A DNA stretch of 36,019 nt from Clostridia bacterium. GTDB lineage: Bacteria; Bacillota; Clostridia; DUPQ01. Below the pieces are notes generated by a model. That model saw only the letters and a program-made list of their open reading frames with translations. It was not told the DNA's origin and made no database searches. This document shows positions 1,425 to 19,907 of this stretch, piece after piece. Numbering within the stretch: the first letter of the stretch is position 1; the number at the start of each line of letters is the position of its first letter. A program made the translations under genes and the position numbers. Where the stretch lies: the NCBI GenBank assembly GCA_016938455.1, contig JAFGUQ010000272.1:1-36019 (forward strand). The letters run 5' to 3'.

Positions 1425-1458
1425 TAAAATAGCATAGTATAAATTTTGGAGGAATCAT

Positions 1459-1950
1459 ATGAAAATCATAGATGAAAAAGGAAGACTTTTCAAATTAGTT
1501 AATGTTGTTGACCTGCTGGTGATACTGGCAATCGTTTTAGTCGTTGGTGGCGTATTTTATGCTCTGTCAAACAGCGGTGCCATTACTGTGACTCCAAAGG
1601 AGTATTATGTAGCCACCATACAGTGTAAGGAAGTGACTCCCTCTGTTTTTGACAGTTTGAATATTGATGATAAAATTGTTTACAGCAATACCTATGTCAA
1701 CGGAACCATTCTCAGCAAATCAGTACAGCCTTCAAAAGTGGAGGTACTGACAGATGATAATCAGCTGATACTGGTTGACCACCCTTCACTGGTTGATGTT
1801 TTCGTGGAACTGGTTGTTGAAGTCGAAAAAGGTTCTGATTTCATCATGCTTGGAAAATATCAGGTGAACATAGGAAAAGAACTTGTCGTTAAAACAAGAA
1901 GAGTAGAAGTGAACGGACTTGTACTTTCAATAAAGGAATATACAAAATAA
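1459..1950 (+). CDS. DUF4330 family membrane-anchored protein
   Basis: 163 residues. The N-terminal MKIIDEKGRLFKLVNVVDLL, followed by one membrane helix (about residues 19-40), is the signature start of DUF4330 proteins. The rest (45-163) is a beta-rich extracytoplasmic domain with no catalytic motif visible. GGAGG sits 6 bases before the ATG. Such proteins recur in surface-polysaccharide clusters of Firmicutes beside glycosyltransferases and O-antigen ligases, as here, and may be accessory to polymer export or assembly; the function is not established. The stop codon overlaps the next start by one base (TAATG), suggesting translational coupling. Confidence 0.75.
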   Translation: MKIIDEKGRLFKLVNVVDLLVILAIVLVVGGVFYALSNSGAITVTPKEYYVATIQCKEVTPSVFDSLNIDDKIVYSNTYVNGTILSKSVQPSKVEVLTDDNQLILVDHPSLVDVFVELVVEVEKGSDFIMLGKYQVNIGKELVVKTRRVEVNGLVLSIKEYTK

Positions 1951-2462
1951 TGAAATATTTCAAATACAGCCTGCTATTTAAAATATGGAACTTTCTATGC
2001 TTCTGCTACCAGAACAGCCATTATCATAAACTGGGAATGGCTTTGTCTGCTATTTCCCTGAAAAGCAAAGCTCATCAGGTCATGAAAAGATACATTGAAC
2101 GTACTCCTTCAAGTCATCAGGCCAGAATCACTGATGGTACAGTACATTTTCTGACCAAACCTTTTTCGTTTCTAAAAAAATATTCAGGTGAAAGTAAAAG
2201 CAGTCAGTGGCTTCATCAGATCAGTCAGCAGTTTAACCAGCATGTCATTTTTTCTTTTCTGCTGATTCTCACCACTTTTTCATTAGGGTTGAATATTGCA
2301 GATTTCATTAAAACCGGAACTCCTGATATTTTATATTCCTCTATTTTTATCGCATCAGTGATTGCTTTTTTCCTATATATGAAAGTTGAGAAATTCATCA
2401 GATATTCTCTGATTTACAGGATGCTTGATTCTATATTCGAGCTTAAGGTGACCAATGAATAA
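1950..2462 (+). CDS. small membrane protein of the polysaccharide cluster, unrecognised
   Basis: 170 residues, no family recognised. The first 95 residues are basic and rich in Ser, His and Gln, with no signal peptide. Two membrane helices follow (about 98-118 and 124-143), then a short charged tail. The start ATG overlaps the stop of the DUF4330 gene by one base and its own end overlaps the O-antigen-ligase-like gene by eight bases, so it is clearly co-translated with that cluster. The position between DUF4330 and the ligase suggests an accessory or scaffold role in polymer assembly, but nothing in the sequence indicates chemistry. Confidence 0.7.
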   Translation: MKYFKYSLLFKIWNFLCFCYQNSHYHKLGMALSAISLKSKAHQVMKRYIERTPSSHQARITDGTVHFLTKPFSFLKKYSGESKSSQWLHQISQQFNQHVIFSFLLILTTFSLGLNIADFIKTGTPDILYSSIFIASVIAFFLYMKVEKFIRYSLIYRMLDSIFELKVTNE

Positions 2463-3834
2463 AAAAACACAGATCATATTATCGGTTATATCTTTCATTA
2501 TTGGACTGACAGGATTTTTCATTAATCCTATACTGTCTATTGTCGGTATTTTCTGTTTTATGGCCTTGCTGTTTTTCATTACCGATTATGCCAGAGTGGT
2601 TTATCTTTTAACTTTTTTCTTCATTCTTGATTACCTTCTAAGAAGTGTCTTCATGCTGACGATTGTCAGTTCAATCTGGGATGAGCTTTTACTTATCGGT
2701 GCACTTTTATTGTTCATCATAAAATATATTTATGATACCAAAACAAAGAAACATGTTTTTACTCCAGTTGATATTCCGATGATTGTTTTTATTCTGATTA
2801 ACCTGTTTATCCTGATCATCAATTCAACATATATGGAAGTAGCGGTTGAAGGGTTCAGAGCAGTGACCACCAATCTATTATGGTTTTTCCTTGTATTTTC
2901 ACTGGTAAAAGATGATAAAGGTGCAAAAAAAGTATTGTCCTTTGTGGTTGCTTCTTCTGTCATCATTGCCTTATATGGAGTTTTCCAGTATGTGACCGGG
3001 GTTGAAATGCCTGCAGGATGGGTCGATGCCGCTGAACTGGGTGTGAGTACAAGGGCTTTTTCGTTTGTACAGAGTCCCAATATTCTCGGTGCAATCATGA
3101 CCCTGACTTCGATGATTGCTGTCGGTCTGTTTTTCTACGAGAAGAAAAAGTTAAATAAGCTGTTTTATCTTGCCTCGTTTGCTGTGATGTTACTCTGTCT
3201 TGTCTTTACTCTATCTCGAGGTGCCTGGATCGGGTTTGCTGTTTCGTTGTTTGTCTTTGTACTTTTGAAAGATAAAAGATATATCCTCCCTGTGCTTGCC
3301 ATTGGAATCATCGTCATCTTATTTGTCCCTGCTGTCTCTTCCAGAGTGCTGTACATGATTTCTCCTGAATATATCTTTTCCAGTCTGACCGGTGGCAGAA
3401 TGCTCAGATGGATTGAGGGATTTGACCTGTTCAAGGAGAATTTCCTCACAGGAGTAGGTTTAGGTCATTTCGGTGGTGCGGTCGCCATGCATTATCCCAA
3501 TTATTTTCCGAAAGCCTTTTACATGGATAACTATTTCCTGAAAACGGCTGTTGAAACAGGAATTTTAGGTGTTACATCGTTTATTGTATTGTTGTATGCC
3601 ATGCTTTCAAGTATATTCAAGAATGTCAAACTGAATAAAAACACCCCTCAAGGCGATTTACTGTTAGCTCTTTTTTCAGGCTTGTTCGGTGTCACTGTTC
3701 ACTGTTTCTTTGAAAATATTTTTGAAGTTCCCGGAATGATTACATTGTTCTGGATGGTAGCAGCTTGTGCCATGGTCATGATTTACAAAAAAAAGGAACT
3801 TCCCGGTCAGGCAGTTCCGCTTTCTAATATCTGA
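2455..3834 (+). CDS. O-antigen ligase / polymerase family (Wzy_C) membrane protein
   Basis: 459 residues with about twelve hydrophobic helices, the usual size and shape of Wzy/WaaL-type proteins that polymerise or transfer lipid-linked glycans on the outer face of the membrane. The Wzy_C core includes TLSRGAWIGF (about 243-252), then a large outside loop with RMLRWIEGFDLFKENFLTGVG and a GLGHFGG turn; Arg and His residues in this loop are functionally important in the family. It overlaps the preceding gene by eight bases. The last codons overlap the convergent thioesterase gene by 28 bases and also encode, on the other strand, that operon's terminator. Ligase versus polymerase cannot be decided. 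Confidence 0.85.
   Translation: MNKKTQIILSVISFIIGLTGFFINPILSIVGIFCFMALLFFITDYARVVYLLTFFFILDYLLRSVFMLTIVSSIWDELLLIGALLLFIIKYIYDTKTKKHVFTPVDIPMIVFILINLFILIINSTYMEVAVEGFRAVTTNLLWFFLVFSLVKDDKGAKKVLSFVVASSVIIALYGVFQYVTGVEMPAGWVDAAELGVSTRAFSFVQSPNILGAIMTLTSMIAVGLFFYEKKKLNKLFYLASFAVMLLCLVFTLSRGAWIGFAVSLFVFVLLKDKRYILPVLAIGIIVILFVPAVSSRVLYMISPEYIFSSLTGGRMLRWIEGFDLFKENFLTGVGLGHFGGAVAMHYPNYFPKAFYMDNYFLKTAVETGILGVTSFIVLLYAMLSSIFKNVKLNKNTPQGDLLLALFSGLFGVTVHCFFENIFEVPGMITLFWMVAACAMVMIYKKKELPGQAVPLSNI
3787..3818 (-). terminator. Intrinsic terminator inside the convergent coding end
   Basis: On the minus strand GGAACT-G-CC, loop, GG-A-AGTTCC forms a stem followed by eight T. It begins just before the thioesterase stop codon and lies entirely inside the last codons of the plus-strand O-antigen-ligase-like gene. 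Confidence 0.75.
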
Positions 3835-4214
3835 TAAATCTCATTATTGTTCTTTTTAAGATTAACCGGTTTTAAATGAAGGTCCGTCCATACATGGCCC
3901 GTTTTTCCAGTAGCAATGACCTCATCACTTCCTTTTTTCCTGATCTCATAGCCGATCACCAGCCGTACTGGTGTTAACTTCTCGATAAATGCTTTAATGA
4001 GAAGTGTGTCTTCATAATATGCCGGTTTCTTGAACTGGCATTCAAGTGAAATCAACGGAAGCATAAATCCTTTTTTTTCACAGTCCGAATAGGAAATGCC
4101 AAGGTCTCTTATAAAATCACTTCTTGATGCTTCATACCATATGGCATAATTGGAATGATGAGCAATACCCATCTGATCTGTCTCAGCATACCTTACTACT
4201 ATTTCTGTCTCCAT
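3807..4214 (-). CDS. Hot-dog-fold acyl-CoA thioesterase, YbgC/4HBT family
   Basis: 135 residues, the normal length for the 4-hydroxybenzoyl-CoA thioesterase-like family. The N-terminal motif VRYAETDQMGIAHHSNYAIW contains the catalytic Asp13 and the helix start typical of YbgC/FadM-type enzymes, which hydrolyse short or medium acyl-CoA thioesters in the cytoplasm. The ATG follows immediately after the YebC stop with no gap, so it is the last gene of the zapA-dut-yigZ-yebC unit. Its stop lies within a strong terminator. Substrate is unknown; housekeeping of acyl-CoA or acyl-ACP is the likely role. Confidence 0.88.
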   Translation of the reverse strand: METEIVVRYAETDQMGIAHHSNYAIWYEASRSDFIRDLGISYSDCEKKGFMLPLISLECQFKKPAYYEDTLLIKAFIEKLTPVRLVIGYEIRKKGSDEVIATGKTGHVWTDLHLKPVNLKKNNNEIYQILESGTA

Positions 4215-4937
4215 TTAACTCTCCCAGTTATGGTATACATTCTGGACATCATCAGAGTCCTCAAGCATATCAATCAGTTTTTCCATCTGTAATCCGTTTT
4301 CTTCATCCAGTGTTGTCATCGTTCCCGGAACCCACTGTAGAGAGGCTTCCATCAAGTCATATTTCTTATCTTCAAGTATCCTTCTGACTCCTGAAAATGC
4401 TGACACCTCAGTGATGATTTCGTAATATTCATCTTCTGACGAGAAATCTTCAGCCCCTGCTTCGATGGCTTCCATCATCAATGTCTCCTCATCAACGGAA
4501 TCTTTTTTTTCAATGATGATGACCCCTTTTCGTTCAAACATGAAAGAGACACATCCGGTAGTTCCAAGGTTCCCGCCGCATTTGTCAAAAGCATGACGGA
4601 TATCGGCAGCTGCTCTGTTTCTGTTATCAGTCATGACTTCTACAATGCAGGCTACACCACTTGGACCATACCCTTCATAAATCACTTCTTCAAAGTTATC
4701 CTGGTCAGCATCTCCTGATGCTTTTAAGATGCTTCTTTTTATATTGTCATTAGGCATGTTATTGGCTTTTGCCTTGGCAATGACATCATAAAGCTTCACA
4801 TTGTTGTCAGGATCAGGTCCACCCTGTTTTACTGCCACCATGATTTCTCTGCCTATTTTTGTAAAGATCTTGCCTTTTTTAGAATCGCTTTTTTCTTTTT
4901 TGTGTTTAATATTAGCCCATTTAGAGTGACCAGACAT
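4215..4937 (-). CDS. yebC: YebC/PmpR/TACO1 family protein
   Basis: 240 residues, full length for the family. The start [20 protein letters not shown] is almost invariant in YebC proteins, and the later segments [20 protein letters not shown] and [20 protein letters not shown] are the other hallmarks. Family members were described as transcription regulators; more recent work on bacterial YebC and mitochondrial TACO1 links them to relief of ribosome stalling on proline-rich stretches. The gene lies between yigZ (two-base gap) and a thioesterase (zero-base gap). The common neighbour ruvC is absent here. Identification is firm; which molecular role dominates in this organism is not visible. Confidence 0.95.
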
Positions 4938-4939
4938 TT

Positions 4940-5572
4940 TTAAATCTCCATTTCCATATATTGTTCTTTTCCTATAGTAAATTCAACATGTCCACTTGTC
5001 AAATTTATCAGTTCATTTTTAATGAATTCCACGTTTTCTTTCTTCATCAGCACAGCTATTATAACATTTTCAAGAAATTCTGTGTTGATGACATTGATGT
5101 TGTTTTCAAGCAGGTAGTTCTGTAATCTTCCAAGCATGGGATAACTGCATTTGATATCAACCTGGTGACATGACATCATCTTGACCACTTTAGCGTTTTT
5201 GACTGCCATTTTGGCTGCTTTACTGTACGCTCTGGCAAGTCCACCGGTACCTAATAAGGTTCCCCCGAAATATCTTGTCACGACAATCAGGACATTTTCC
5301 AGATCGTTTCCTGTGATCACCTCAAGGATCGGCAGCCCGGCAGTCCCTTTAGGTTCATTATCATCGCTGTACTTCTGATAAAGATTGCCGTCATTCACTC
5401 TAAAAGCATAGGTGTTATGGCTTGCATCACTGTAAAGATTCTTAATCTCTTCAATGGCCATCTGTGCTTGCTCATTTGTACTGACTTTTTTAACTGTCGC
5501 AATGAACCGCGATTTCTTTTCAATGATTTCACAGGAATTCTCATTCTTGATTGTGGTATAATCTCTATTCAT
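4940..5572 (-). CDS. yigZ: YigZ/IMPACT family protein (UPF0029)
   Basis: 210 residues, full length. The N-terminal UPF0029 domain shows [36 protein letters not shown] and [19 protein letters not shown], the conserved blocks of the family, followed by a C-terminal ferredoxin-like domain (about 137-205). Eukaryotic IMPACT binds GCN1 and counters GCN2; bacterial members are thought to act near translation, but their role is not settled. Its ATG overlaps the dut stop by four bases and its end is two bases from yebC, so it is co-expressed with a dUTPase and a translation-linked factor. Confidence 0.93.
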
Positions 5573-6063
5573 TTCACTCCGGTTGACCCGAATCCTCCAC
5601 CTCTGTCTGTTCCAATGGTTCTGACATCCTCAATCTTTATGAATTCAATCTGCGGAACTCTAGCAAGCACAAGCTGTGCTATCCTGTCCCCTTTTTTTAT
5701 ATCATATGTCCCGCTCTTGTTTCCGCTAGATGAAAGCGGCAGTATAATCTCTTTATCCTCCTTGTCAGAGGTGTTTGTCATCAGTATGCCCACTTCATCA
5801 CGATAACCGCTGTCAATGGTGCCTGGTGAGTTAGACAGCCTCAGCGGTGTCTTGAATGACAACCCGCTTCTTGGTCGGACCTGTATCTCAAATCCTTCAG
5901 GAATCGCCAATTTAAAACCGGCTGGAATGATGATGGTTTCACCCGGTTCAATCACTGCATCAACTGCTGCGCAGACATCCATTCCTGCATCAAAAATATT
6001 GGCATATCTTGGTATCTCCACACCTTCTCTGCACAATTCAATATATACGTTAATCTTTTCCAT
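5569..6063 (-). CDS. dut: dUTP diphosphatase (trimeric dUTPase)
   Basis: Hydrolyses dUTP to dUMP and PPi, limiting uracil in DNA and feeding dTMP synthesis. All five motifs of the trimeric family are present in order: AGMD, RPRSGL, GTIDSGYRDEV with the catalytic Asp, RIAQLVL, and the C-terminal arm RGGGFGSTG. The start chosen is the ATG at 6063 (164 residues), preceded by AAGAGG at short spacing; a TTG five codons upstream (6078) is possible but has no Shine-Dalgarno. The gene lies 34 bases after zapA and overlaps yigZ by four bases. Confidence 0.94.
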   Translation of the reverse strand: MEKINVYIELCREGVEIPRYANIFDAGMDVCAAVDAVIEPGETIIIPAGFKLAIPEGFEIQVRPRSGLSFKTPLRLSNSPGTIDSGYRDEVGILMTNTSDKEDKEIILPLSSSGNKSGTYDIKKGDRIAQLVLARVPQIEFIKIEDVRTIGTDRGGGFGSTGVK

Positions 6064-6097
6064 AACCCTCTTTTTCAAGTAACATAGCAGTTACTGT

Positions 6098-6481
6098 CTA
6101 CCTTTGCGGATTTCTTGATTGTCCCAGTTCAGTTTCTCTCCTGACAAGCTGCATTTTCAGATTGGAATTTTCTTCAGTAAGTCTTTCAACCTTATTCTCG
6201 AGATTCTTGATTTTCTGATTAAACTCACGAAGCTGTTTCTCAAGTGCCAATGTTCTCCCCTTCAGATTGGTTGATTTATCTCTTTCCTTGAAAAATTCGT
6301 CAGCAATATTCGTGGCTCCCAAAACAGCCACCATCACTGTGCTTAATTTGCTGTCACCAAGTTCTTCAACCTGCTTAAGTTTTTTATCGACATATAAGCC
6401 CACTTTTTGAATATACTCATCTGACTCAGTACCTACTATTAAATAATCTTTACCTAATATAGATAATTTCACTTTATTCAT
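6098..6481 (-). CDS. zapA: Cell division protein ZapA
   Basis: 127 residues, the size of Gram-positive ZapA. The N-terminal globular domain reads KVKLSILGKDYLIVGTESDE and YVDKKLKQVEEL, then helix-rich VMVAVLGATNIADEFFKERD, both typical, followed by a long coiled coil (about 68-120) used for dimer and tetramer formation. ZapA bundles FtsZ filaments at the Z-ring. The usual neighbours in Bacillus (pheT side, mutS2) are absent; here zapA leads a unit with dut, yigZ, yebC and a thioesterase. GGAG seven bases before the ATG and a strong upstream promoter support this start. Confidence 0.9.
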   Translation of the reverse strand: MNKVKLSILGKDYLIVGTESDEYIQKVGLYVDKKLKQVEELGDSKLSTVMVAVLGATNIADEFFKERDKSTNLKGRTLALEKQLREFNQKIKNLENKVERLTEENSNLKMQLVRRETELGQSRNPQR

Positions 6482-6509
6482 TTATTCGCTCCAAACATTT
6501 TATATTACC

Positions 6510-6538
6510 ATTATATAGAAATTCGCAGATTATATCAA
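6510..6538 (-). promoter_or_regulatory. Sigma-A-type promoter of the zapA operon
   Basis: On the minus strand TTGATA (6538-6533), a 17-base spacer and TATAAT (6515-6510) form a near-consensus promoter about 30 bases upstream of the zapA start. It lies directly after the terminator of the rsmA unit, marking a clean transcript boundary. Confidence 0.75.
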
Positions 6539-6553
6539 TCTAATCAAAACTCT

Positions 6554-6589
6554 TAAAAAACAAAAAAAGACTTCAATCGAATGAAATCT
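6554..6589 (-). terminator. Intrinsic terminator after rsmA
   Basis: On the minus strand AGATTTCA, a six-base loop and TGAAGTCT (one G-U pair) form an 8-bp stem at 6589-6568, followed by a T-rich run (T7, G, T6). It sits 23 bases past the rsmA stop. Confidence 0.8.
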
Positions 6590-6612
6590 CACCTGCAGAT
6601 AAAAGTATGATG

Positions 6613-7491
6613 TCAGTTTTTTTCCTGACCGAGTTTATGATAAATGGAATCTGCAATCTGGGCAAACTGCTCAATTGATAATCGCTCGGCACGAACTTGA
6701 ACATCAAGTCCCATGTCAACTAAAATTGCCTCAACATCCTCTCTTGTGATATCTAGATAAAGTGTATTGGCTAATGAATTGGTCACTTTCTTTCTTCGCT
6801 GGGCAAAAGAAGCTTTGACGATTTTGAAAAAAAGTTCCTTGTCCTTGACCTGAACTTTCTGACTGGAGTTTTTAATGAACTTCAAAACAGTGCTGTTCAC
6901 ATCAGGTTTCGGAACAAAGCAATCAGGGCTGACATTGGCTACCCTTACCGTGTCGCAATAATAATTGACTATCACACTTAATCCGCCGTATGTTTTTGTT
7001 CCCGGTCCTGCCAGAATTCGATCTGCGACTTCTCTTTGCATCATCAATACCGACAGTGCAGGTGGTTCGCTGCATTGCAGAAACTTCATGATGACAGCTG
7101 TTGTAATATAGTATGGCAGATTAGCAATGACTTTATATGATTTGAACTCTCTGTTTTTTTCAAGAATATCTTTAATGATATCAACTTTTAAAACATCTTC
7201 ATGAATGATCTCCACATTATCACAGTCATTTAAATAATCTTTTAAAAGAGGAATCAGTTTCTTATCAATCTCAATGCCAACCAGTTTCCTGCATTTTGAA
7301 GCAATGATTTTAGATAAGCTTCCAGCCCCCATTCCCACTTCGATGACAAGGTCTTCCTGAGTAAGATCGGCAGCATCAATGATTTTCATGGCTGTATTTT
7401 TATCTTTCAGAAAATTCTGTCCTAAAGACTGAACTGTTTTGATCTGATATTTGGACATTAAATGGAACATATTGTCTTCATTATTTCTCAT
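6613..7491 (-). CDS. rsmA: 16S rRNA (adenine1518/1519-N6)-dimethyltransferase
   Basis: RsmA/KsgA dimethylates two adjacent adenines in the 3'-terminal loop of 16S rRNA during late 30S assembly, using SAM. 292 residues, family-typical. Seen: SLGQNFL near the N-terminus, the SAM-binding EVGMGAGSLS, VGIEIDKKLI with the acidic ribose-binding residue, HEDVLK, the catalytic NLPYYITTAVI (N-L-P-Y) and MMQREVADRI. The gene overlaps the 3D-domain gene by 11 bases, conserving the yabE-ksgA neighbourhood of Bacillus but without the usual rnmV between them. The ATG at 7491 has only a distant AGGG; Met8 or Met12 could be the true start. Confidence 0.95.
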   Translation of the reverse strand: MRNNEDNMFHLMSKYQIKTVQSLGQNFLKDKNTAMKIIDAADLTQEDLVIEVGMGAGSLSKIIASKCRKLVGIEIDKKLIPLLKDYLNDCDNVEIIHEDVLKVDIIKDILEKNREFKSYKVIANLPYYITTAVIMKFLQCSEPPALSVLMMQREVADRILAGPGTKTYGGLSVIVNYYCDTVRVANVSPDCFVPKPDVNSTVLKFIKNSSQKVQVKDKELFFKIVKASFAQRRKKVTNSLANTLYLDITREDVEAILVDMGLDVQVRAERLSIEQFAQIADSIYHKLGQEKN

Positions 7492-8551
7492 AGATAAAAT
7501 ACACCCTGACTTTTCTTATCCCCCAGTCCAAAGCATCCTGTTTATCATACATGAACAAGTCAATACGATTTCCTTTGATTCCGGTACCGGTATCACCGGC
7601 AACAGCAAATCCGTAATTCTGAAAAGCCCCTGAAATGGTTTCGATGTATACTTTTGTCCCGAATGGGATGACACTCTTGTCAACAGCAATTACACCGGTA
7701 TCCGCTTTCATCCCTGATGCTGTAATCCCATATCCGGGATCTCCAGGTGCTTTCCCGCCACATTCATCCGGGTCAAGTGTATAGGCTGTGGCTACGAAAG
7801 TCTCATAGCGAAGATACATGAAAGTCTTTCCTGTATTCGGATCAGTTTTTGAAGGAATCACTCCGATTTCAATTTTTTTATTGACTGGTTCTCTGGTGAC
7901 TTCTTCTAAAGATAACTGTCTGTTTACCTCTACACCGTTTTCATAGGTGATTTCATAGATGTATGTTTTTTCACCTAGTTGTCCGTCATCAAGTACATGG
8001 GTTTCATTAAGTGCCATGTTCTGATTTTCTATCAGTTCTATATAATTCTGAAGCAGTGTTTTTTCGATTTTGATGCCTTTTGTGACTCTGACGATTTCAA
8101 TGGTCATATTAGCAGATAGTGAAGTGTCCAATGAACAGTTGAGAAGTTTGTCATCTTCATAAACCGTTATTTTCATTTCATCCAGTAATTGACCGACAGT
8201 TTCATAGTATGTCATGACTTCTTTTTCATTCCCGTCCCATTTGACAGTGACCGGGACAGCTGTTTTTATTGCAATGGTATTGGCTTCTTTCTCCAATGAG
8301 TCATTGACATCAACACTTATGAAATCAACATTGTCATTAAAAGGAATGTTATTGTCCTTCATAAATCCTGCAATGGTTGTTTCCAGTGTACGGGCGGCAT
8401 AAACATGCCCATTAAAATTTAATGTGACGTTTTTAAGATTGTTTTCAAATATATACAGGGTGACAAGCATAATCAGCAGCAATGCAAATATGCCTGCGAT
8501 GGTGTGTTTTATTACTCGATATTTACTTTTAGCATCATGGTGCTTAACCAT
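7481..8551 (-). CDS. yabE: YabE-like cell-wall protein: DUF348 repeats, G5 and 3D domains
   Basis: 356 residues. One N-terminal membrane helix (about residues 13-38) anchors or exports it. Two DUF348-like repeats follow, then a G5 domain (about 160-235, glycan binding), then a C-terminal 3D domain (about 270-355) with ATAYT, SGMKADTGVIAVD, IPFGTKVYI, AGDTGTGIKGNRIDLF: the three conserved Asp residues of the fold shared with resuscitation factors and lytic transglycosylases. Probably trims peptidoglycan. The ATG at 8551 has GGAG six bases upstream; an ATG at 8563 would place that Shine-Dalgarno inside the gene. Expressed from a perfect consensus promoter with rsmA. Confidence 0.9.
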   Translation of the reverse strand: MVKHHDAKSKYRVIKHTIAGIFALLLIMLVTLYIFENNLKNVTLNFNGHVYAARTLETTIAGFMKDNNIPFNDNVDFISVDVNDSLEKEANTIAIKTAVPVTVKWDGNEKEVMTYYETVGQLLDEMKITVYEDDKLLNCSLDTSLSANMTIEIVRVTKGIKIEKTLLQNYIELIENQNMALNETHVLDDGQLGEKTYIYEITYENGVEVNRQLSLEEVTREPVNKKIEIGVIPSKTDPNTGKTFMYLRYETFVATAYTLDPDECGGKAPGDPGYGITASGMKADTGVIAVDKSVIPFGTKVYIETISGAFQNYGFAVAGDTGTGIKGNRIDLFMYDKQDALDWGIRKVRVYFIYEK

Positions 8552-8561
8552 ATCATTCTCC

Positions 8562-8620
8562 ATTTCATAAATTCCCGCAAATTATAATCGAAAAAACGAT
8601 CATTGTCAAATTTATGAAAT
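8562..8620. repeat. 12-bp perfect inverted repeat flanking the yabE promoter
   Basis: ATTTCATAAATT (8562-8573) and its exact reverse complement AATTTATGAAAT (8609-8620) flank the promoter. One arm touches the -35 box; the other covers roughly +1 to +13. Each arm is itself nearly palindromic (AATTT-ATG-AAATT), as expected for paired operators of a dimeric regulator. Confidence 0.6.
8581..8609 (-). promoter_or_regulatory. Perfect sigma-A promoter of the yabE-rsmA unit
   Basis: On the minus strand TTGACA (8609-8604), exactly 17 bases, then TATAAT (8586-8581): a full consensus match. The expected start of transcription is near 8574, about 23 bases before the yabE ATG. Confidence 0.85.
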
Positions 8621-8626
8621 TCAGGA

Positions 8627-9364
8627 TCACTTCATGGAAGTGATGAGCCATGTGCTTTTCGTCGTATCGTACTTGAAAGTAAAGAAGAAAACATTGACTC
8701 CCTCTACAAAATTTTCGTCTTCAACAGGAAGTCCTTCTTCGTTTTTGGCAAGAGTTATATTAAGCTGAACTTTAAATTCAAGATACTCCAGCTGATTGAC
8801 ATCACTCTTTGTACTTTCCACTTTGTCAGCATTTGTAACCTCGATATTGACTACATTTTCAAATTGCTGTCTGAAAGTCGAATAACTCTCATCTGTTGTT
8901 TCTCCCAGAACAATTTTACTGTCCTGATATAGAAAAGGAGTAGATAGAGTCTGTGCACTGATGGGAATCGCCCAGTTCACTGTGAGGAAATTAATAAAAT
9001 AAGTACTCCCTACAGCTTGTTTCAGTGCATCGATAATCAGGTAGTGATTGTTGATTTCTTCATAGATATCTTGAAGCTGTGCATCTTTATCGTTAAGCTC
9101 AGCATTCTTGCTGGCCAGGATTTCATCAAATGTATTGATTTCATTCTGAAGCGCATCTCTTGCTTCACGGATGCTTCTTATCGTATCATCCTTATCATTG
9201 AGTGTATCAATGAGTGACTGGATTGACTGCAGGTTTTCGCTTTTAATTAATTCTGATTCATTCAGTTTTTCTTTTTTTGCCATGTTATCCCATAACAGGT
9301 AGTTGAATCCCGCTAAAATAGTGAATATGATTATTCCGGCTGTGAAAATAGCAGCTTTTTTCAT
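8627..9364 (-). CDS. Membrane-anchored coiled-coil protein, unrecognised
   Basis: 245 residues. An N-terminal membrane helix (about 6-25) is followed by a coiled coil (about 30-105, with repeated Asn/Asp/Lys/Leu spacing) and a C-terminal domain of about 130 residues, probably outside the cell, with no motif I recognise. The ATG at 9364 is chosen because GGAGG lies five bases before it; the TTG at 9376 would include the Shine-Dalgarno. A TATAAT at about 9391-9396 suggests its own promoter. The gene lies between tatD and the yabE-like gene, a position empty in Bacillus, so a cell-envelope role is plausible but unproven. Confidence 0.75.
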   Translation of the reverse strand: MKKAAIFTAGIIIFTILAGFNYLLWDNMAKKEKLNESELIKSENLQSIQSLIDTLNDKDDTIRSIREARDALQNEINTFDEILASKNAELNDKDAQLQDIYEEINNHYLIIDALKQAVGSTYFINFLTVNWAIPISAQTLSTPFLYQDSKIVLGETTDESYSTFRQQFENVVNIEVTNADKVESTKSDVNQLEYLEFKVQLNITLAKNEEGLPVEDENFVEGVNVFFFTFKYDTTKSTWLITSMK

Positions 9365-9411
9365 TGTTACCTCCAACTCATGTTATTGCTATTATACCAT
9401 AATACCAAAAA

Positions 9412-10185
9412 CTAAAAAACTGGTAAAGAGAACAGGTCATTTGTGTTCTTCCATGATGCTTCAAACACTTCCTCAACTGTTATTTCTTTTATCTCCGCAA
9501 TGGCTTTAGCGACATAAATCACATTTCTGCTGTCGTTTCTTTTTCCCCTGTTTGGAGCAGGAGTCAGATAAGGGCTGTCCGTTTCAATCAGCAGTCTGTC
9601 AAGAGGTGTGTGTCTGACTGCCTCATGCACATTCTTTGCATTCTTGAATGTGGTGATTCCGTTGAAAGACAGATAAAAATTCAATCCAAGTACCTGCGGT
9701 ATCATTTCTTTGCTGCCTGAATAACTGTGGAATACACCTTTTGTCAATGAGTCTTTATACCTGGTCAATGTATCAAGTACAGGCTTATGCGCCTCTCTGT
9801 CGTGAATGATCATCGGAAGTTTCAATTGATTGGAAAGTTTGATCTGCCGGATAAAGGCCTCCATCTGCATATCCCTTGGTGAAAAATCATAATGGTAATC
9901 AAGACCTATTTCACCAACGGCTACCACTTTTTCGTTGGCAAGCAGTTCAATTAACCTGTTTTCATTCTCATCAGAATATGTGCTTGCATCATGAGGATGT
10001 ATGCCAACTGCTGCATAGATGAAATCATATTGCATAGACAAATGAAGCGATGCGAGACTTGATTTCATATTTGAACCTATGTTGATTACTCTGTCAATGC
10101 CTGCTTGTTTAATTTGCTCAATGACCAGTTCTCGATCATCATCAAATCTGCCATCATCGAGATGCGCATGGGAATCTACAATCAT
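9412..10185 (-). CDS. tatD: TatD family metal-dependent DNase/hydrolase
   Basis: 257 residues, the usual TatD length. The TIM-barrel metal site is complete: VDSHAHLDD with the HxH pair, AVGEIGLDYHYD with the Glu, LPMIIHDREAH, GVFHSYSG and LLIETDSPYLTP with the metal-binding Asp. Family members are 3'-5' exonucleases or phosphoesterases linked to DNA repair and quality control. The ATG at 10185 follows GGAG at five bases; a GTG at 10215 would start inside the preceding terminator. The tatD-yabE-ksgA order resembles that of Bacillus. The transketolase terminator ends directly against this gene's Shine-Dalgarno. Confidence 0.93.
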   Translation of the reverse strand: MIVDSHAHLDDGRFDDDRELVIEQIKQAGIDRVINIGSNMKSSLASLHLSMQYDFIYAAVGIHPHDASTYSDENENRLIELLANEKVVAVGEIGLDYHYDFSPRDMQMEAFIRQIKLSNQLKLPMIIHDREAHKPVLDTLTRYKDSLTKGVFHSYSGSKEMIPQVLGLNFYLSFNGITTFKNAKNVHEAVRHTPLDRLLIETDSPYLTPAPNRGKRNDSRNVIYVAKAIAEIKEITVEEVFEASWKNTNDLFSLPVF

Positions 10186-10194
10186 ATATTCTCC

Positions 10195-10220
10195 AAAAAA
10201 AGAGTGCATAAGCACTCTTT
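10195..10220 (-). terminator. Intrinsic terminator fused to the tatD ribosome-binding site
   Basis: On the minus strand AAAGAGTGC, a four-base loop and GCACTCTTT form a perfect 9-bp stem with a run of T. The stem begins inside the transketolase stop codon (10221-10219) and the T run ends at 10195, directly against the GGAG (10194-10191) of tatD. Confidence 0.85.
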
Positions 10221-11163
10221 AAAGTTTTTTCATTGCTATCGCCTGTTTTGCTTTTTCCACAATGTTTTCTGCTGTCAAACCGAATTCCTGTAATAATGAA
10301 GCCGGTTTTCCGCTTTTTCCGAAAGTGTCTTCAATCCCTACCATTTTAACAGGGACCGGATAATTCTGGCTGGCTACATCACTGACAGAGCTTCCCAGTC
10401 CATTGATGACATTATGTTCTTCAGCTGTGACAATCGCTCCGGTTTCCCTGCATGCTTTGATGATAATATCTTCATCAATCGGTTTAATCGTGTGGATATT
10501 GATGACACGGGCATTGATTCCTTCTGATTTAAGCATCTCATACGCTTCAAGCGCAATATGCACCATCAGTCCGGTAGCAATAATAGTCACATCACTGCCG
10601 TCTTTCATCATGATTCCTTTTCCGATTTCAAACTTATAGTCGTTTTCATCAAACAGTACAGGCACATCAAGTCTTCCCAGTCTTAAGTAGACAGGGCCAT
10701 TATATTCAATAGCCGCTTTCACAGCAGCTCTTGTTTCAATCGCATCTGCTGGTGAAATCACTGTCATGTTCGGTATGGTTTTCATGTTTGAAATATCTTC
10801 AATCATCTGGTGACTCGCACCGTCTTCACCTACAGATATTCCTGCATGAGTGGCACCGATTTTCACATTCAGTTTTGGATAGCAGATGGAGTTTCTAACC
10901 TGCTCACATGCTCTTCCTGCTGCAAATATCGCAAAGGTGCTGGCAAAAACAATCTTACCTGTCGTGGCTATTCCTGCGGCTACTGACATCATATTCGCCT
11001 CGGCAATCCCCATATTGAAAAAACGCTCAGGATACACTTTTCTGAAATTGTCTGTTTTAGTTGACTTGGAAAGGTCTGCATCTAAAACCACGATATCTTT
11101 ATTTGAACCGAATTCGGCAAGTGCATCTCCGTAAGCCTGCCTTGTTGCAATTTTCTTAGACAT
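10219..11163 (-). CDS. Transketolase, C-terminal subunit
   Basis: 314 residues, equal to the pyrimidine-binding and C-terminal domains of transketolase; with the next gene upstream it makes the two-subunit enzyme of the non-oxidative pentose phosphate pathway. Motifs: DADLSKSTKT, FFNMGIAEANMMSVAAGIA (the Glu that activates thiamine pyrophosphate), FASTFAIFAAGRACEQVRN, GEDGASHQMIEDI and the C-terminal VTAEEHNVINGLGSSV. The ATG at 11163 has GGAGGG eight bases upstream and overlaps the N-terminal gene by eight bases. A DXS-like alternative is unlikely given the split arrangement. The stop codon is part of the terminator stem. Confidence 0.93.
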   Translation of the reverse strand: MSKKIATRQAYGDALAEFGSNKDIVVLDADLSKSTKTDNFRKVYPERFFNMGIAEANMMSVAAGIATTGKIVFASTFAIFAAGRACEQVRNSICYPKLNVKIGATHAGISVGEDGASHQMIEDISNMKTIPNMTVISPADAIETRAAVKAAIEYNGPVYLRLGRLDVPVLFDENDYKFEIGKGIMMKDGSDVTIIATGLMVHIALEAYEMLKSEGINARVINIHTIKPIDEDIIIKACRETGAIVTAEEHNVINGLGSSVSDVASQNYPVPVKMVGIEDTFGKSGKPASLLQEFGLTAENIVEKAKQAIAMKKL

Positions 11164-12013
11164 TTTTAACACCCTCCAACTCTTGTAATTTCTCATTCAA
11201 TTCTTTAATGGCCAAATCTCTCTCTTCCTGATTTGGTGCTTTACCATGCCAGCCGTAATCACCTTCCATATACGAGACACCTTTTCCTTTGATTGTATTA
11301 AGGATGACTATGGTAGGTTTTCCCTTGAATTCTTTTGCTTTTTCGAAAGTGCTGATGACCGATTCCATATCATTTCCGTCTTCCACGTTGATGACATTCC
11401 AGTTAAAAGCTTCAAATTTGCTTTTAATGCAACCGGGGTTCATGACATCACAGATCTTACCGTCAATCTGAAGACCGTTATAGTCAACAAATGCCATCAG
11501 ATTATCAAGTTTATAGTGAGCTGCAGACATAAAAGCTTCCCATACCTGGCCTTCTTCCAGTTCGCCGTCTCCAAGCAATGCATAAACACGGTAATTCTTG
11601 TTATATATTTTCCCTGACAAAGCCATTCCGACTGCTGCTGAAATCCCCTGTCCCAGAGAACCGGTAGACATATCCACACCAGGAACATCTTTCATGCTGG
11701 GATGACCCTGTAAATAACTGTCTATGCTTCTGAATCCTTTTAAATCCTCTTCCGGAAAGAATCCTCTTGCTGATAATGTGGCATACAGACCAGGTGAACA
11801 GTGACCTTTTGATAACACAAATCTGTCTCTGTCAGCCATTTTAGGGTTTTTGGGATCCACATTCATTTCATAGAAATATAACGCTGTAAAAACTTCTGCG
11901 CTTGATAGTGATCCGCCCGGATGCCCGCTGCCTGCTGAAAACACTTGCTCGATAATGTTTTTTCTTATTTTAGTAGCTGTGATCTGTAGCTCTAAAAGTG
12001 TTTTTTTATCCAT
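11156..12013 (-). CDS. Transketolase, N-terminal subunit
   Basis: 285 residues, the thiamine-pyrophosphate-binding half of a split transketolase that moves two-carbon units between sugar phosphates. Seen: SGHPGGSLSSAEVFTALYF, DRFVLSKGHCSPGLYA, STGSLGQGISAAVGMAL, and the ThDP motif GDGELEEGQ...DYN at about 155-187. It ends where the C-terminal subunit begins (eight-base overlap), so the two are made together. AAGGAG eight bases before the ATG and a strong promoter inside the end of yitT drive the pair independently of the upstream genes. Confidence 0.95.
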   Translation of the reverse strand: MDKKTLLELQITATKIRKNIIEQVFSAGSGHPGGSLSSAEVFTALYFYEMNVDPKNPKMADRDRFVLSKGHCSPGLYATLSARGFFPEEDLKGFRSIDSYLQGHPSMKDVPGVDMSTGSLGQGISAAVGMALSGKIYNKNYRVYALLGDGELEEGQVWEAFMSAAHYKLDNLMAFVDYNGLQIDGKICDVMNPGCIKSKFEAFNWNVINVEDGNDMESVISTFEKAKEFKGKPTIVILNTIKGKGVSYMEGDYGWHGKAPNQEERDLAIKELNEKLQELEGVKNV

Positions 12014-12054
12014 GTTTTAAACTCCTTATATAATTACTAACTATTCATTCATAT

Positions 12055-12083
12055 AGTATACCTTTATGATTTCTTGCTGTCAA
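12055..12083 (-). promoter_or_regulatory. Near-consensus promoter of the transketolase pair
   Basis: On the minus strand TTGACA (12083-12078), 17 bases and TATACT (12060-12055). The -35 box lies within the last codons of yitT, showing that the transketolase genes have their own promoter. Confidence 0.8.
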
Positions 12084-12960
12084 AGCCTTGAAAGCCTTCT
12101 CCTAAAACTTCTCTGACATCGGTTAAGACAATGAACGCTTCCGGGTCGATTCCCTTGATAATTGATTTAATCAGCGTCACCTGTTTCGCTCTTGCCACGC
12201 AGAACAGCATTTCTCTTTCAGTCTCCGTATACTTACCCACGCTTTTAATACCGGTAACCCCTCTGTCCATTTCGCTCAATATCTTTTCTGCTATGTCCTG
12301 AGACCTGTCAGATATGATATACAGTCCTTTGGCAAAGGCAATCCCGTCAAGAAGCAGGTCAACCACTTTTGAAAAAGTCAGGATAGCTATGATCGCATAC
12401 ATGGAAAGCAATATATTGTTAAAAACAATCCCTGCAGTGACCACAATGATTGCATCAAAGATGAACATGGTCTGACCCATTGTCAGATGAACTCCTTTTT
12501 TAAGTAAAATATCAGCCAGCAGGTCTACACCGCCTGTATTCGTATTGTTTCTGTAAACAATCCCAAGGCCTAAACCCATGATGGCTCCGCCGAACAGCGA
12601 AAACAGAAGTAAATCAATCTGACCTCCGACAGAAATATGATTACTGGCAATCTCCATCAGAAACTGGCCGGATATGTCTATGAAAACTGAGAACAATATG
12701 GTAGCAAACGCAATTCTTACCACTGCTTTTTTGCCAAGTATGAAAAAGCCTGCTATGAAAAGAGGAATATTGATAATCAGGATAAGAATTCCTAAGGGAA
12801 TGACCTTACCAATCAGATAATACACAATTGTGCTGAGTCCTGTGACTCCTCCAGGAGCAATTTTATATGGAATCAGGAAGATATTGATACCAGCTGCTCC
12901 GATAGCAGTTCCAGCCGTGATCACAAGATATTTCAGAAGGAATTTAAATACTTTCTTCAT
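12064..12960 (-). CDS. YitT family membrane protein (DUF161/DUF2179)
   Basis: 298 residues. Five or six membrane helices fill the first 200 residues, with the conserved NIFLIPYKIAPGGVTGLS near the N-terminus and RNNTNTGGVDLLADILLKK in the middle. The C-terminal cytoplasmic DUF2179 domain (about 215-290) reads GLYIISDRSQDIAEKI, DRGVTGIKSVGKYT and FCVARAKQVTLIKSIIK, as in YitT and related proteins. Transport is suspected for the family; no substrate is known. The ATG at 12960, inside the end of the TPR gene (17-base overlap), gives the usual MKKVFKFLLK start; a further ATG at 12993 is less likely. Confidence 0.9.
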   Translation of the reverse strand: MKKVFKFLLKYLVITAGTAIGAAGINIFLIPYKIAPGGVTGLSTIVYYLIGKVIPLGILILIINIPLFIAGFFILGKKAVVRIAFATILFSVFIDISGQFLMEIASNHISVGGQIDLLLFSLFGGAIMGLGLGIVYRNNTNTGGVDLLADILLKKGVHLTMGQTMFIFDAIIVVTAGIVFNNILLSMYAIIAILTFSKVVDLLLDGIAFAKGLYIISDRSQDIAEKILSEMDRGVTGIKSVGKYTETEREMLFCVARAKQVTLIKSIIKGIDPEAFIVLTDVREVLGEGFQGFDSKKS

Positions 12961-13798
12961 AGGACACCAGCTCTTTACTAATCCTGTCATCATCTACTAT
13001 GTCAATGGATGTTTTTTCAAATGTAAGTGCTTTTTTCATGAACTCAATTCCATCTTCGACCTTTTTCTCCTCCATTTTCAATTTCCCCATGAAATAAAGT
13101 GTGTCCTTATTCGCTCCGTTCAGATCATAATAAAGGACTCTGAAATGAAGTTTAGCATCATGGTTCTGGGTGGTTTGAAAATAAGCCATTACAAGGTTCT
13201 GCCTGAGGCCGACCTGATTTCCCATTGTCTGGATCAAATCCTCAATATATGTTCTTGTCTCTCTGAACATTTCCTTTTCAAGATAGAGTCTGGTCAGCAC
13301 GTAACTGATGCTCTCATCACAACCTTTTCTGACACTTTTCTTAATATTTTCAAGCGCACCTTCAAGATTGTCATTTAATTTCCATTCAACCAGTGCCATA
13401 TTCGCTTTCATTTTAGCCGTATCGGCATAAACAAGATCTTTATCACCAAGTTTTGAAAGGATATCCTCCGCTTCTCTGTAATGTTCTTTCAGAATCAGCA
13501 GATGAGCATGAAATACCCTGACGCACGGTGGTACGAATATCCATTTGTTTGCCATGGTTGTAATGGCCAGAGCCTGTCTGATATGAAACTTTTGATACCT
13601 TCTCATGGCGATTCCCGACAGCGATCTTGACATGCCGACAACCAGTGCAATGAATCCGTAAACTGAACCGAACAGAAACGGATATGGCGAATAAATCAGC
13701 ATATAGACACCAATGGCAAAGGTCATGAAGGGTAATACAAGCAATAGCATAAGTCCTGCAAAGTTCTTATAATAGAAATAATTTTTTCCCCAGTACAT
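12944..13798 (-). CDS. Two-helix membrane protein with TPR-like repeats
   Basis: 284 residues. Two membrane helices (about 12-34 and 39-58) are followed by a cytoplasmic helical region of about 210 residues whose paired amphipathic helices look like tetratricopeptide repeats (for example HAHLLILKEHYREAEDILSK, then MALVEWKLNDNLEGALENIK). No catalytic motif. It follows another gene of similar build after a nine-base gap and overlaps yitT, so the two TPR proteins may be partners or diverged duplicates. Probably a scaffold; not assignable further. Confidence 0.7.
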   Translation of the reverse strand: MYWGKNYFYYKNFAGLMLLLVLPFMTFAIGVYMLIYSPYPFLFGSVYGFIALVVGMSRSLSGIAMRRYQKFHIRQALAITTMANKWIFVPPCVRVFHAHLLILKEHYREAEDILSKLGDKDLVYADTAKMKANMALVEWKLNDNLEGALENIKKSVRKGCDESISYVLTRLYLEKEMFRETRTYIEDLIQTMGNQVGLRQNLVMAYFQTTQNHDAKLHFRVLYYDLNGANKDTLYFMGKLKMEEKKVEDGIEFMKKALTFEKTSIDIVDDDRISKELVSYEESI

Positions 13799-13807
13799 CT
13801 TTCCCTC

Positions 13808-14581
13808 CTAAATAGAAGTGAATATGTCCTTCTCGAATCTATCCACTTTCTGATACATTTTCTGAGCATTAAGCTGGTCTCCTGTTTTTTCGTAGGCAAG
13901 TCCAGCGTAATGAAAAGCGTTCTTAGTAAAAGGTTTCTGTTTCATCAGAACAGGAATCACTTTCAGTGCTTTTTCATAATCTTCAGTCATACAGTAAATT
14001 CTGATGAGGTTTTCAAGTATATGTTCGTTTTTATTGTTATATCGATATGCGTCTTCATTGAATTGTTTCGCTTTTTCCATGTCATTGTTTTCTATCAGCA
14101 TTTTCCCGAGAATATGGAAATATGATGTGTTTTTCAGTTCTTCCGGTGCTTTTTCAAGTTCAATGATTGCTTTGACTAACCTGTTTTCAATTTTCCACAG
14201 TAAAAGGTTTTCACAGATTAAAATCTGAGATTTGATGCTGTCGATATCTTTCATTCCCCTGACGATGGCAAGCACTTCACTTGCTTTGGTGAAATCACCA
14301 GTCAGAATCAGGCTGTAACAATAGGAGATGCATACTTTAGGTTCTGCCTTGTTTGTTTTAAAAGCTTTTGAATACAAGTTGACGGCTTTTGCGTATTTAC
14401 CTTTCAGATATGCTCTTTTTCCGAAAAAGGAATTGACCTTATCTCTTTCATCATAAAATCTGAAGACAATATAGGCAAACAGAACCAGAAGACCTTCCAG
14501 GAACTCTCCTGTCAGAATAATGATAACGACAACGATGGGAGCCACCCAGTTAAAGGCAGCTTTATACATATTTCTATTCAT
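13808..14581 (-). CDS. Membrane protein with tetratricopeptide repeats
   Basis: 257 residues. A hydrophobic N-terminal stretch (about 10-42, probably two short helices) is followed by TPR-like repeats: GKYAKAVNLYSKAFKTNKAE, GDFTKASEVLAIVRGM, NNDMEKAKQFNEDAYRYN, EDYEKALKVIPVLMKQKP and GDQLNAQKMYQKV. The chosen ATG (14581) overlaps the URO-D stop by eight bases (ATGAATAG), indicating coupling. TPRs bind other proteins; the partner is unknown. The gene is the first of a pair of similar membrane TPR proteins. Confidence 0.72.
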   Translation of the reverse strand: MNRNMYKAAFNWVAPIVVVIIILTGEFLEGLLVLFAYIVFRFYDERDKVNSFFGKRAYLKGKYAKAVNLYSKAFKTNKAEPKVCISYCYSLILTGDFTKASEVLAIVRGMKDIDSIKSQILICENLLLWKIENRLVKAIIELEKAPEELKNTSYFHILGKMLIENNDMEKAKQFNEDAYRYNNKNEHILENLIRIYCMTEDYEKALKVIPVLMKQKPFTKNAFHYAGLAYEKTGDQLNAQKMYQKVDRFEKDIFTSI

Positions 14582-15695
14582 GCCAGTTGGCCCAGAACCT
14601 TTCTTTTCCCGCTTCAGATACATAGGAATTCAATTGTTCTCTGTCAATTCCCTCATCAATCAGCTTCTTGCATTCTCTGCAGGCTTTTTCGAAAGCAAGT
14701 ACTTTCTTGACACCTGACTCATTAATCTGCTGATGAGTGACAATGGAAAAAATCTCACTGGCTCCGTCTGCTGCTGCTTTATACACCCAGTCACTCACTT
14801 CCTGTACTGTCAGAAGATCATAATGAAATCCGTTTAATCTCCATTTAAAAGGCACTCTAGTGTTCTCAAAAATCAAGGGTGGATTGAGTTTAGCAGACAC
14901 AGAGGGATCATACATATTGATATTTGCTTTTTCAAGATGCTTAACATGCTTATAGTTTAAATCCTCCACATGAATGAACCGCTTTCCGTCTGTCACGCCG
15001 TTATAGTAGATTTCCCAGTAAGGAAGAACAAATTCTTCCCATAAATCAGGAGAAAACATGGAAGCGATATCATCACACAGTCCCCATCCGTCATTTGAGA
15101 ATTCTTTGTTTCCATTTATTTTTGAATGGATTTTTATATATTCCACTGTGTTTTTTGTCATCACAGTCAGAAACTCCTTGAATTTCTCAGGATCATCATA
15201 AACATCATAAAAAACATTCATGTCCCGCAGTTCATAGGCGGTGGTCATGGGCCCTTCATATCCGAAAGTCCAGCCTACCTTTTCTCCCGGAAATGCTTTT
15301 TGCAGCTGTTCTCTGTATTCCAGTTGTTTTTTGGCAAGATCAGATAACTCAATGTCTTTTTTCAGAATTTTTATCCACTCATCCATGCTTTTATTCTCGT
15401 GGACATAGTTGACATCTCCTCCGCCTTCAGGGAAAACCAGTTCCATACCCAGGCAACTTAAGTGACCATATGAGATATGGCCTGTTGAAGGAGCTATATG
15501 ACTTAGTTTATAGTCAAACATCTTATCAAGTTTCTCAACATTTTCTTTTGAATAAAGCTTGATTCCCGCTTTATAGTCTGTATTGATCTCATAATAGGTA
15601 AGATCGGCGATTTCCATCAGCGAACTGACACCGTTACTGACGCTGTAATTGAATCCAGCTTCTTTTCTTGCCGTCTCATAATTCACTTTAAACAT
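14574..15695 (-). CDS. URO-D superfamily protein, divergent (MtaA/CmuA-like or UroD-like)
   Basis: 373 residues, TIM barrel of the uroporphyrinogen decarboxylase superfamily. The segment FSNDGWGLCDDIASMFSPDL, then WEEFVLPYWE, matches the family's hallmark (active-site Asp followed by SP-LW-F-P). At the place where methyltransferase-type members have the zinc motif H-x-C this protein reads HVED, so a zinc-thiol site is not evident. Heme synthesis is unlikely: no other heme gene is visible in the window. It lies 43 bases after a flavodoxin gene and overlaps a TPR membrane gene. GAGG six bases before the ATG supports the start. Reaction unknown. Confidence 0.8.
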   Translation of the reverse strand: MFKVNYETARKEAGFNYSVSNGVSSLMEIADLTYYEINTDYKAGIKLYSKENVEKLDKMFDYKLSHIAPSTGHISYGHLSCLGMELVFPEGGGDVNYVHENKSMDEWIKILKKDIELSDLAKKQLEYREQLQKAFPGEKVGWTFGYEGPMTTAYELRDMNVFYDVYDDPEKFKEFLTVMTKNTVEYIKIHSKINGNKEFSNDGWGLCDDIASMFSPDLWEEFVLPYWEIYYNGVTDGKRFIHVEDLNYKHVKHLEKANINMYDPSVSAKLNPPLIFENTRVPFKWRLNGFHYDLLTVQEVSDWVYKAAADGASEIFSIVTHQQINESGVKKVLAFEKACRECKKLIDEGIDREQLNSYVSEAGKERFWANWHE

Positions 15696-15738
15696 GATTT
15701 ACCTCACTTGTCTTGATGCTTCAATTGTACCATACATA

Positions 15739-16266
15739 CTATGAAAACTGCCTAACATAATCGATTATTTCATTGATGTTTTTTTTATTCGTGAAATCTG
15801 CCGGGTGTGCATATGCATTTAACATCCCTTTCACATCCGCATCTTTATCCTTTTTCATCTTTAATTTCATTTTCATAAGCATCATCATGAATTTATGCAA
15901 CAGAGACAGTTTGTTAAAATCAAATCCCCCTCTGAGATAAAAGAATCTGATATGCTCCTGCTGCTCTTTTGTGAAATTGGCTTCTTTAATCTCTTCAATC
16001 GTGTGCGCTCTTCGCGGTGTCGCTCCGGTGGTGAAAACAACAATTTTCTTATCCTTGATCTTGTCAAAGTTATCCTTGATAAAAGAAATTCCATTGATTC
16101 CGACTGCATATAATCCGGCTCCGTAAATGATCGTGTCATAGGATAAAAGCAATGACTGGTCATGCTTTTTCAATTCAGTCATATCGCAGCAGAGTTCTTC
16201 CTGAATCCATGTCGCATATTGTTTTGTGAATCCTGATCTCGATTTATAAATGACTATGGTCTTCAT
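15739..16266 (-). CDS. Flavodoxin-domain protein (Flavodoxin_5 / HemG-like)
   Basis: 175 residues. The FMN phosphate loop is YKSRSGFTKQYA at residues 7-18; IIYGAGLYAVG and VVFTTGATPRR form the other flavin-binding loops. The pattern fits the flavodoxin family that includes menaquinone-dependent protoporphyrinogen oxidase HemG, though the oxidase function is not established by this. It overlaps the GNAT gene by four bases (ATGA) and is followed 43 bases later by a URO-D gene, suggesting electron delivery to that enzyme or to a shared pathway. A lysine- and methionine-rich insert (about 125-145) may bind the membrane. Confidence 0.85.
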   Translation of the reverse strand: MKTIVIYKSRSGFTKQYATWIQEELCCDMTELKKHDQSLLLSYDTIIYGAGLYAVGINGISFIKDNFDKIKDKKIVVFTTGATPRRAHTIEEIKEANFTKEQQEHIRFFYLRGGFDFNKLSLLHKFMMMLMKMKLKMKKDKDADVKGMLNAYAHPADFTNKKNINEIIDYVRQFS

Positions 16267-16814: not shown

Positions 16815-16817
16815 TTT

Positions 16818-19159: not shown

Positions 19160-19190
19160 TTATCCTCCGTTCTTTTTAATAAACTGAGTA

Positions 19191-19895: not shown

Positions 19896-19907
19896 AATGA
19901 TCTTCTC

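Follow-up and report, generated by a model that had tools for sequence, protein, structure and literature searches.

A sigma-A consensus promoter bracketed by conserved 12-bp inverted arms upstream of yabE-rsmA: candidate paired operators in a genus of Clostridia

Why should a promoter that matches the sigma-A consensus at every position be enclosed by two exact inverted copies of a 12-bp sequence, and does this arrangement point to a regulator of the genes behind it? The question arises at the yabE-rsmA locus of a Clostridia bacterium (assembly GCA_016938455.1, contig JAFGUQ010000272.1), in a stretch of 36,019 nucleotides that was analysed as a whole and is called the window below; the minus-strand gene order is tatD, a gene without a Pfam match, yabE, and rsmA. 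An earlier note on this DNA had described a perfect promoter (TTGACA, 17, TATAAT) with inverted arms at the -35 edge and over the transcript start. Both observations hold. The promoter scan gave the site 12/12 with a 17-nt spacer, the sole perfect score among 75 promoter-like sites in positions 1-20000 of the window, and the two arms are exact inverted copies with 35 bp between them; relaxing the repeat search lengthens them to 19 nt at 84%. Both arms are located between the stop codon of the upstream gene and the yabE start. On the minus strand, the region upstream of yabE reads ATTTCATAAAT-TTGACA-N17-TATAAT-TTGCGGG-AATTTATGAAAT-GGAG-N6-ATG, and the interval between the upstream gene and yabE can be written in short form as ATTTCATAAATTTGACA-N17-TATAATTTGCGGGAATTTATGAAATGGAG-N6-ATG; the -35 hexamer begins with the T that ends the 12-bp upstream arm. 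From the spacing, with the last T of TATAAT taken as -7, we infer a transcript start near position 8574 and a leader of 23 nt. The yabE start given in Table 1 was set by the Shine-Dalgarno sequence and by alignment with two genomes of the same genus, G001 and G002; the listed open reading frame begins at 8563. The upstream gene is a possible source of RNA that reads through the promoter. Elsewhere in the window, two tandem tRNA genes lie on the minus strand at 29836-29993.

Table 1. Features of the yabE-rsmA locus, in window coordinates.
Feature	Position	Strand	Basis or remark
Upstream arm ATTTCATAAATT	8609..8620	minus	-46 to -35; identical in G001 and G002
-35 hexamer TTGACA	8604..8609	minus	promoter scan; remainder outside the arm kept 5/5 in G001 and G002
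17-nt spacer	8587..8603	minus	poorly conserved; identity with own sequence 7/17 (G001) and 9/17 (G002)
-10 hexamer TATAAT	8581..8586	minus	promoter scan; kept 6/6 in G001 and G002
Discriminator TTGCGRG	8574..8580	minus	conserved (alignment); identity with own sequence 6/7 (G001) and 7/7 (G002)
Downstream arm AATTTATGAAAT	8562..8573	minus	about +2 to +13; G001 and G002 differ by one base (AATTTATGAAGT)
Shine-Dalgarno GGAG	8558..8561	minus	directly 3' of the downstream arm; sequence and alignment
yabE	7481..8551	minus	DUF348, G5, 3D (Sps): Pfam PF03990, PF07501, PF06725
rsmA (ksgA)	6613..7491	minus	Pfam PF00398; overlaps the yabE end
Upstream gene, no Pfam match	8627..9376	minus	syntenic in G001 and G002
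tatD	9412-10215	minus	

Whether the pair is remarkable depends on the frame in which it is counted. Exact 12-bp inverted pairs whose arms lie 10-60 bp apart occur once in the window, at the yabE promoter; the mean over 200 dinucleotide shuffles of the window is 0.24, and 16.5% of these carried at least one. Locally, base shuffling of the surrounding 100 bp produced such a pair in 7 of 20,001 copies. The inverted pair is thus not significant window-wide, but it is special at the yabE promoter.

We found yabE in three of the four genomes of the genus (our own, G001, and G002), and all three have both the promoter and the arms; we found none of yabE, rsmA, and the upstream gene in the fourth, G003, which is 71% complete. 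G001 and G002 match 23 of the 24 arm bases, 12/12 in the upstream arm and 11/12 in the downstream arm, where the sole change is A to G. The YabE proteins are 67-68% identical to ours. With gaps counted as differences, identical columns number 725/1070 and 726/1070 for yabE and 429/761 and 409/761 for the upstream-gene region, the upstream gene of G002 being cut by a contig end. The longest three-way identical runs in the 1.9-kb alignment are one of 20 nt inside yabE and then one of 17 nt, which consists of the upstream arm and TTGACA. Since the yabE genes of G001 and G002 are themselves close (930/1070 identical columns), these two genomes amount to about one lineage, and conservation rests on two independent lineages. 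The outcome that the earlier note had named as fatal to its idea, arms that vary freely beside a promoter that is kept, does not occur in the two close relatives available.

As a control, we aligned seven further upstream regions from our own genome, G001, and G002. Two noncoding promoters among them, judged by eye (those of zapA and of the gene before yabE), keep mainly the -10 and ribosome-site regions. The transketolase promoter (identified by Pfam) was rejected because the -35 side that it also keeps is coding, and four regions (URO-D, YitT, DUF975, and TatD) were set aside as having no clear noncoding promoter. The URO-D-family gene at 14574-15695 is single at this location in the window and a tandem pair in G001 (C17 4119-6372) and G002 (C80 4539-6793); two more members of this family lie in the window at 22855-23886 and 32855-34006. 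At the yabE locus itself, two candidate features were discarded by eye: a coding role for the downstream arm, as a short frame from its ATG, since the frames diverge after three codons, and a hairpin at 8626-8644 over the upstream stop codon, which is not kept in G001 and G002.

Outside the genus the picture changes. In the sister genus, three of three genomes (G008, G009, and G010) keep the perfect promoter without the arms, which argues against a general role of the arms; they look genus-specific. Another genus of the same family gave no yabE match in four genomes. The conservation in relatives to which the earlier note had looked therefore holds in G001 and G002 (23/24) and fails in the sister genus.

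The same note had considered a consensus promoter unusual before cell-wall and rRNA-modification genes, a view that did not survive a wider sample. We collected 91 regions upstream of YabE homologues, taken by YabE match and not by a neighbouring rsmA: 31 initial loci and 60 of the next 67 matches, seven being omitted because their match did not start before residue 90 (upstream regions L006-L011 and L113-L197 are included). A promoter scoring 11-12/12 lies within 660 bp in 82 of the 91, compared with 1.4 per 91 shuffled regions, and 15 are perfect; outside the family the counts are 76/85 and 9/85. The Mycobacterium tuberculosis rpfB-ksgA genes, which are under several controls (PMC6009663, excerpt), likewise count against the notion that such a promoter is unusual here. 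The class-wide occurrence of near-consensus promoters before YabE homologues suggests a gene built for strong expression, which therefore needs control.

Bracketing repeats are not a general property of these promoters. Among 84 YabE-homologue regions whose promoter scored 10/12 or better, and with mispaired flanks as the control, inverted flank matches of at least 6 bp occurred 24 times (23.8 expected) and of at least 7 bp 8 times (7.6 expected). Longer matches exceeded expectation, with 7 versus 2.4 at 8 bp or more, 5 versus 0.7 at 9 bp or more, and 4 versus 0.23 at 10 bp or more, three in each class coming from this genus. The long-match excess is carried largely by the three genus loci, and a general yabE feature was rejected on this ground. 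The non-genus promoters with matches of at least 8 bp are L136, L137, L113, and L162. At L136 (G031), the yabE promoter is bracketed by another exact inverted pair, 10 bp long and different in sequence, AGGATTCGTT/AACGAATCCT; this pair may be due to chance, and it was not seen when a few more upstream regions from the family were read.

We also asked where else the arms occur as a unit. The gapped repeat TTCATAAATT-N33..37-AATTTATGAA is present in 4 of 391 genomes of the class, three of them this genus; in the fourth, G053, other DNA lies between the arms and the promoter match is loose. A named genome collection, from which our own record may be left out, yielded 64 stretches, two of them at the yabE locus (L056, the G002 site, and L063, the G001 site). 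The DNA between the arms differs from that of the yabE locus in the other 62, of which 10 have a loose promoter, TTGANN-N15..19-TANNNT, at the repeat; one of these, L054, also belongs to the LysR group described next. Mostly in Bacteroidetes-named records, TTCATAAATT and AATTTATGAA are the arms of a conserved 53-bp element whose right arm holds a LysR-type start codon (L024, L038, L042, L043, L046, L053, L054, L057, L059, L067, L071, and L079; also L066). The genes at L079 and L067 match Pfam HTH_1 and LysR_substrate, the other LysR-type calls being made from a similar N-terminus, and in 9 of 12 cases the element contains a TAnnTTTG box, which we take to be the Bacteroidetes promoter element. 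Here, too, a repeat brackets a promoter, this time at the gene for a regulator. A LysR regulator resembling the Bacteroidetes one was rejected as a candidate at yabE: our own genome has no match at E 1e-10, and the matches in G001 and G002 reach 23-24%. Five further stretches (L019, L020, L026, L047, and L048) are T-box-like, with GGTGGTACCGCGG, presumably the T-box motif, and outer stems that happen to match the arms.

A shared regulator might be expected to leave further sites, and the genome-wide search for the 12-mer that the earlier note had in mind was carried out. Our own genome has five exact copies, two of them the yabE arms and three elsewhere, and among the copies read there is no second promoter of this kind. 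With at most one mismatch, AYTTCATAAATT occurs 177 times against 127 for the reversed pattern in our own genome, a slight excess, and 168 against 215, 208 against 241, and 279 against 310 times in the other three genus genomes; apart from that slight excess the arm is not enriched in the four genomes, and no regulon is visible at this threshold. A composite search for the arm joined to TTGACA, with up to 3 mismatches, covered the same four genomes. Among the matches listed, which for the 1-mismatch arm gave positions in our own genome and G001, no second such promoter was seen at 13 exact AYTTCATAAATT copies elsewhere (5 in our own genome and 8 in G001), at the 17 composite near matches read, or at a stretch of G001 in which two copies with 1 mismatch lie close together; several of these copies appear by eye to be coding. 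That no regulon was seen implies that any regulator is either dedicated to this locus or works with looser sites. The 44 window proteins scanned contain no Pfam repressor or DNA-binding regulator domain, with one match by name, YebC/TACO1, and the promoter site has no Rfam match. CodY and the other known boxes compared did not, to our knowledge, fit the arms well.

What, then, do the arms do? We give roughly even credence to the reading that they are paired sites for one dedicated DNA-binding protein, which would repress yabE-rsmA by promoter occlusion. Each arm is nearly palindromic (ATTT-CAT-AAAT) and would probably take one dimer, although in G001 and G002 the near-palindrome of the downstream arm is broken at one position. 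One dimer would sit over the -35 edge and a second over the first transcribed bases; the bound protein would thereby keep RNA polymerase off a near-maximal promoter, blocking both sigma contact and initiation. Near-palindromic arms at positions that would block these two steps are what favours paired operators, and the suggestion in the earlier note that the placement suits a two-site repressor is supported by the location of the arms, one over the -35 edge and one shortly past the predicted start. Its further suggestion of looping is not favoured, because the arms are 47 bp apart, which makes about 4.5 turns if 10.5 bp are assumed for each and puts them on roughly opposite faces of the helix; a strong promoter held by a repressor would here mean occlusion with no loop. 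From the observed sequence, position, and two-lineage conservation we infer binding by a protein and, with it, repression and a timing of its release. Against paired operators count the restriction to two lineages, the one change in the downstream arm, the sister genus that lacks the arms, the absence of a visible regulon or second such promoter among the copies read, and the lack of a regulator candidate among the 44 window proteins scanned. The interpretation offered in the earlier note is supported in part, by the two-site placement and by the conservation of the arms within the genus, and finds no support as to the unusual promoter and looping.

A different function for the same repeat lies in RNA. 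In putative read-through transcripts from tatD and the upstream gene, the arms may pair as a hairpin of 13-14 bp whose loop holds the promoter, insulating yabE, a possibility that we regard as doubtful. Promoter-started RNA would have the second arm alone and could form no such hairpin; the stem would have its base at the ribosome site, and read-through RNA would be translated less or cut. A stable hairpin is indeed predicted in the read-through RNA of all three genomes, the native RNA being without the upstream arm: the 66-nt segment folds at -15.9 (own), -15.8 (G001), and -18.4 (G002) kcal/mol, and our 72-nt segment has z = -3.0, with none of 200 shuffles folding as well. After the A to G change in the arm, the RNA can still pair at this position, as G-U, and an outer C-G pair is added in G001 and G002. 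There are precedents for a promoter in a hairpin at phage T4 I-TevI to III and segB and at Aeh1 mobE, and in seg43(25) of Aeromonas phage 25 the stem ends right before the ribosome site (PMC2988022, excerpt). However, the Shine-Dalgarno sequence lies outside the stem and its accessibility changes little (unpaired 0.48 in read-through versus 0.62 in native RNA for our own sequence, 0.58 versus 0.52 for G001, and 0.68 versus 0.86 for G002), so the ribosome site would not be sequestered as a rule; the start codon is more open in our own read-through RNA (0.75 versus 0.15) and equally closed in G001 and G002. Moreover, across the three sequences 23 of the 24 arm letters are unchanged and no double compensatory change is seen, despite strong divergence of the spacer. 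Conservation of the arm letters, beyond what pairing alone would require, favours recognition by a protein. Paired operators and a read-through hairpin could nevertheless both hold at once, and we consider it quite unlikely, on predicted folding and sequence, that one repeat of this chromosomal operon serves both as DNA operator and as a hairpin that insulates yabE, tying translation of the gene to its own promoter.

Two readings do without any repressor. In one, no regulator exists: the upstream arm would act as an extended, AT-rich contact of the promoter, the downstream arm would be a flank of the ribosome site that is transcribed early, and chance would account for part of their mirror symmetry. 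The 0.24 pairs expected per window and the absence of any inverted-flank excess up to 7 bp among the 84 YabE-homologue promoters are compatible with this joint account, which we nonetheless judge unlikely, given the local chance of 7/20,001, arm letters that are kept where the spacer is not, two usable control promoters that do not conserve the corresponding flanks, and inverted flanks of at least 10 bp that are in excess and belong mainly to this genus. In the other, the locus is an inverton whose promoter a recombinase flips between the arms. A promoter between inverted repeats is inverton anatomy (PMC8748976, excerpt), but 35 bp between the arms would be too short for an ordinary recombinase loop, the orientation is the same in three of three assemblies, the register of the arms to the adjoining conserved hexamers is fixed, and no Pfam recombinase is among the 44 window proteins scanned; we hold this to be highly improbable. 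Overall, the conserved arms suggest that the promoter is under the control of a switch protein or, with lower probability, of a hairpin in RNA. The element is ordinary in kind and probably real.

Its interest lies in the genes that it precedes. YabE (SpsB) and RpfB have both domains and the tatD-ksgA context in common (PMC1084345, excerpt); proteins of this type are thought to cut or remodel peptidoglycan at growth restart, and rsmA marks ribosome maturation (PMC1084345 and PMC6009663, excerpts). The yabE-rsmA neighbourhood is old and shared. A conserved, locus-specific pair of sites provides a concrete bait for finding its regulator. We know of no established regulator that acts on this neighbourhood in most Firmicutes, and a narrow literature search found no report of this promoter-bracketing element among the entries listed.

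Repressors of the lac, gal, and Bla/Mec type use two copies of one site around a core promoter, one of them at or after the start. The yabE element is like them in having two like sites at a strong core promoter and unlike them in that no repressor gene was found in the window and in its 47-bp, half-integral spacing. With the T4-type promoter-in-hairpin it shares a hairpin that could be formed by longer upstream transcripts alone, and with seg43(25) a stem foot that adjoins the ribosome site, sequestration of that site being absent there too; it differs from the phage cases in belonging to a chromosomal operon, in having its Shine-Dalgarno sequence outside the stem, and in arms that are conserved by letter (PMC2988022, excerpt).

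The closest parallels concern the genes themselves. M. tuberculosis rpfB-ksgA-ispE is one operon with a 5' RNA switch limited to few species (PMC6009663, excerpt). It is homologous to the operon described here, with rpfB as the counterpart of yabE and ksgA as rsmA, and it resembles ours further in having tatD upstream, overlapping frames, and an element before the first gene in few relatives; it differs in its two promoters and long leader with terminator and antiterminator, as against a predicted 23-nt leader here (PMC6009663, excerpt). An rpfB-type switch has no visible counterpart in our sequence, as neither a terminator-like site nor an Rfam match is listed at the yabE promoter. In Bacillus subtilis, yabE has an antisense RNA (PMC2784878, excerpt). 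yabE would then be under special control in both organisms, in B. subtilis through an antisense transcript and here, we suggest, through an inverted repeat around the sense promoter.
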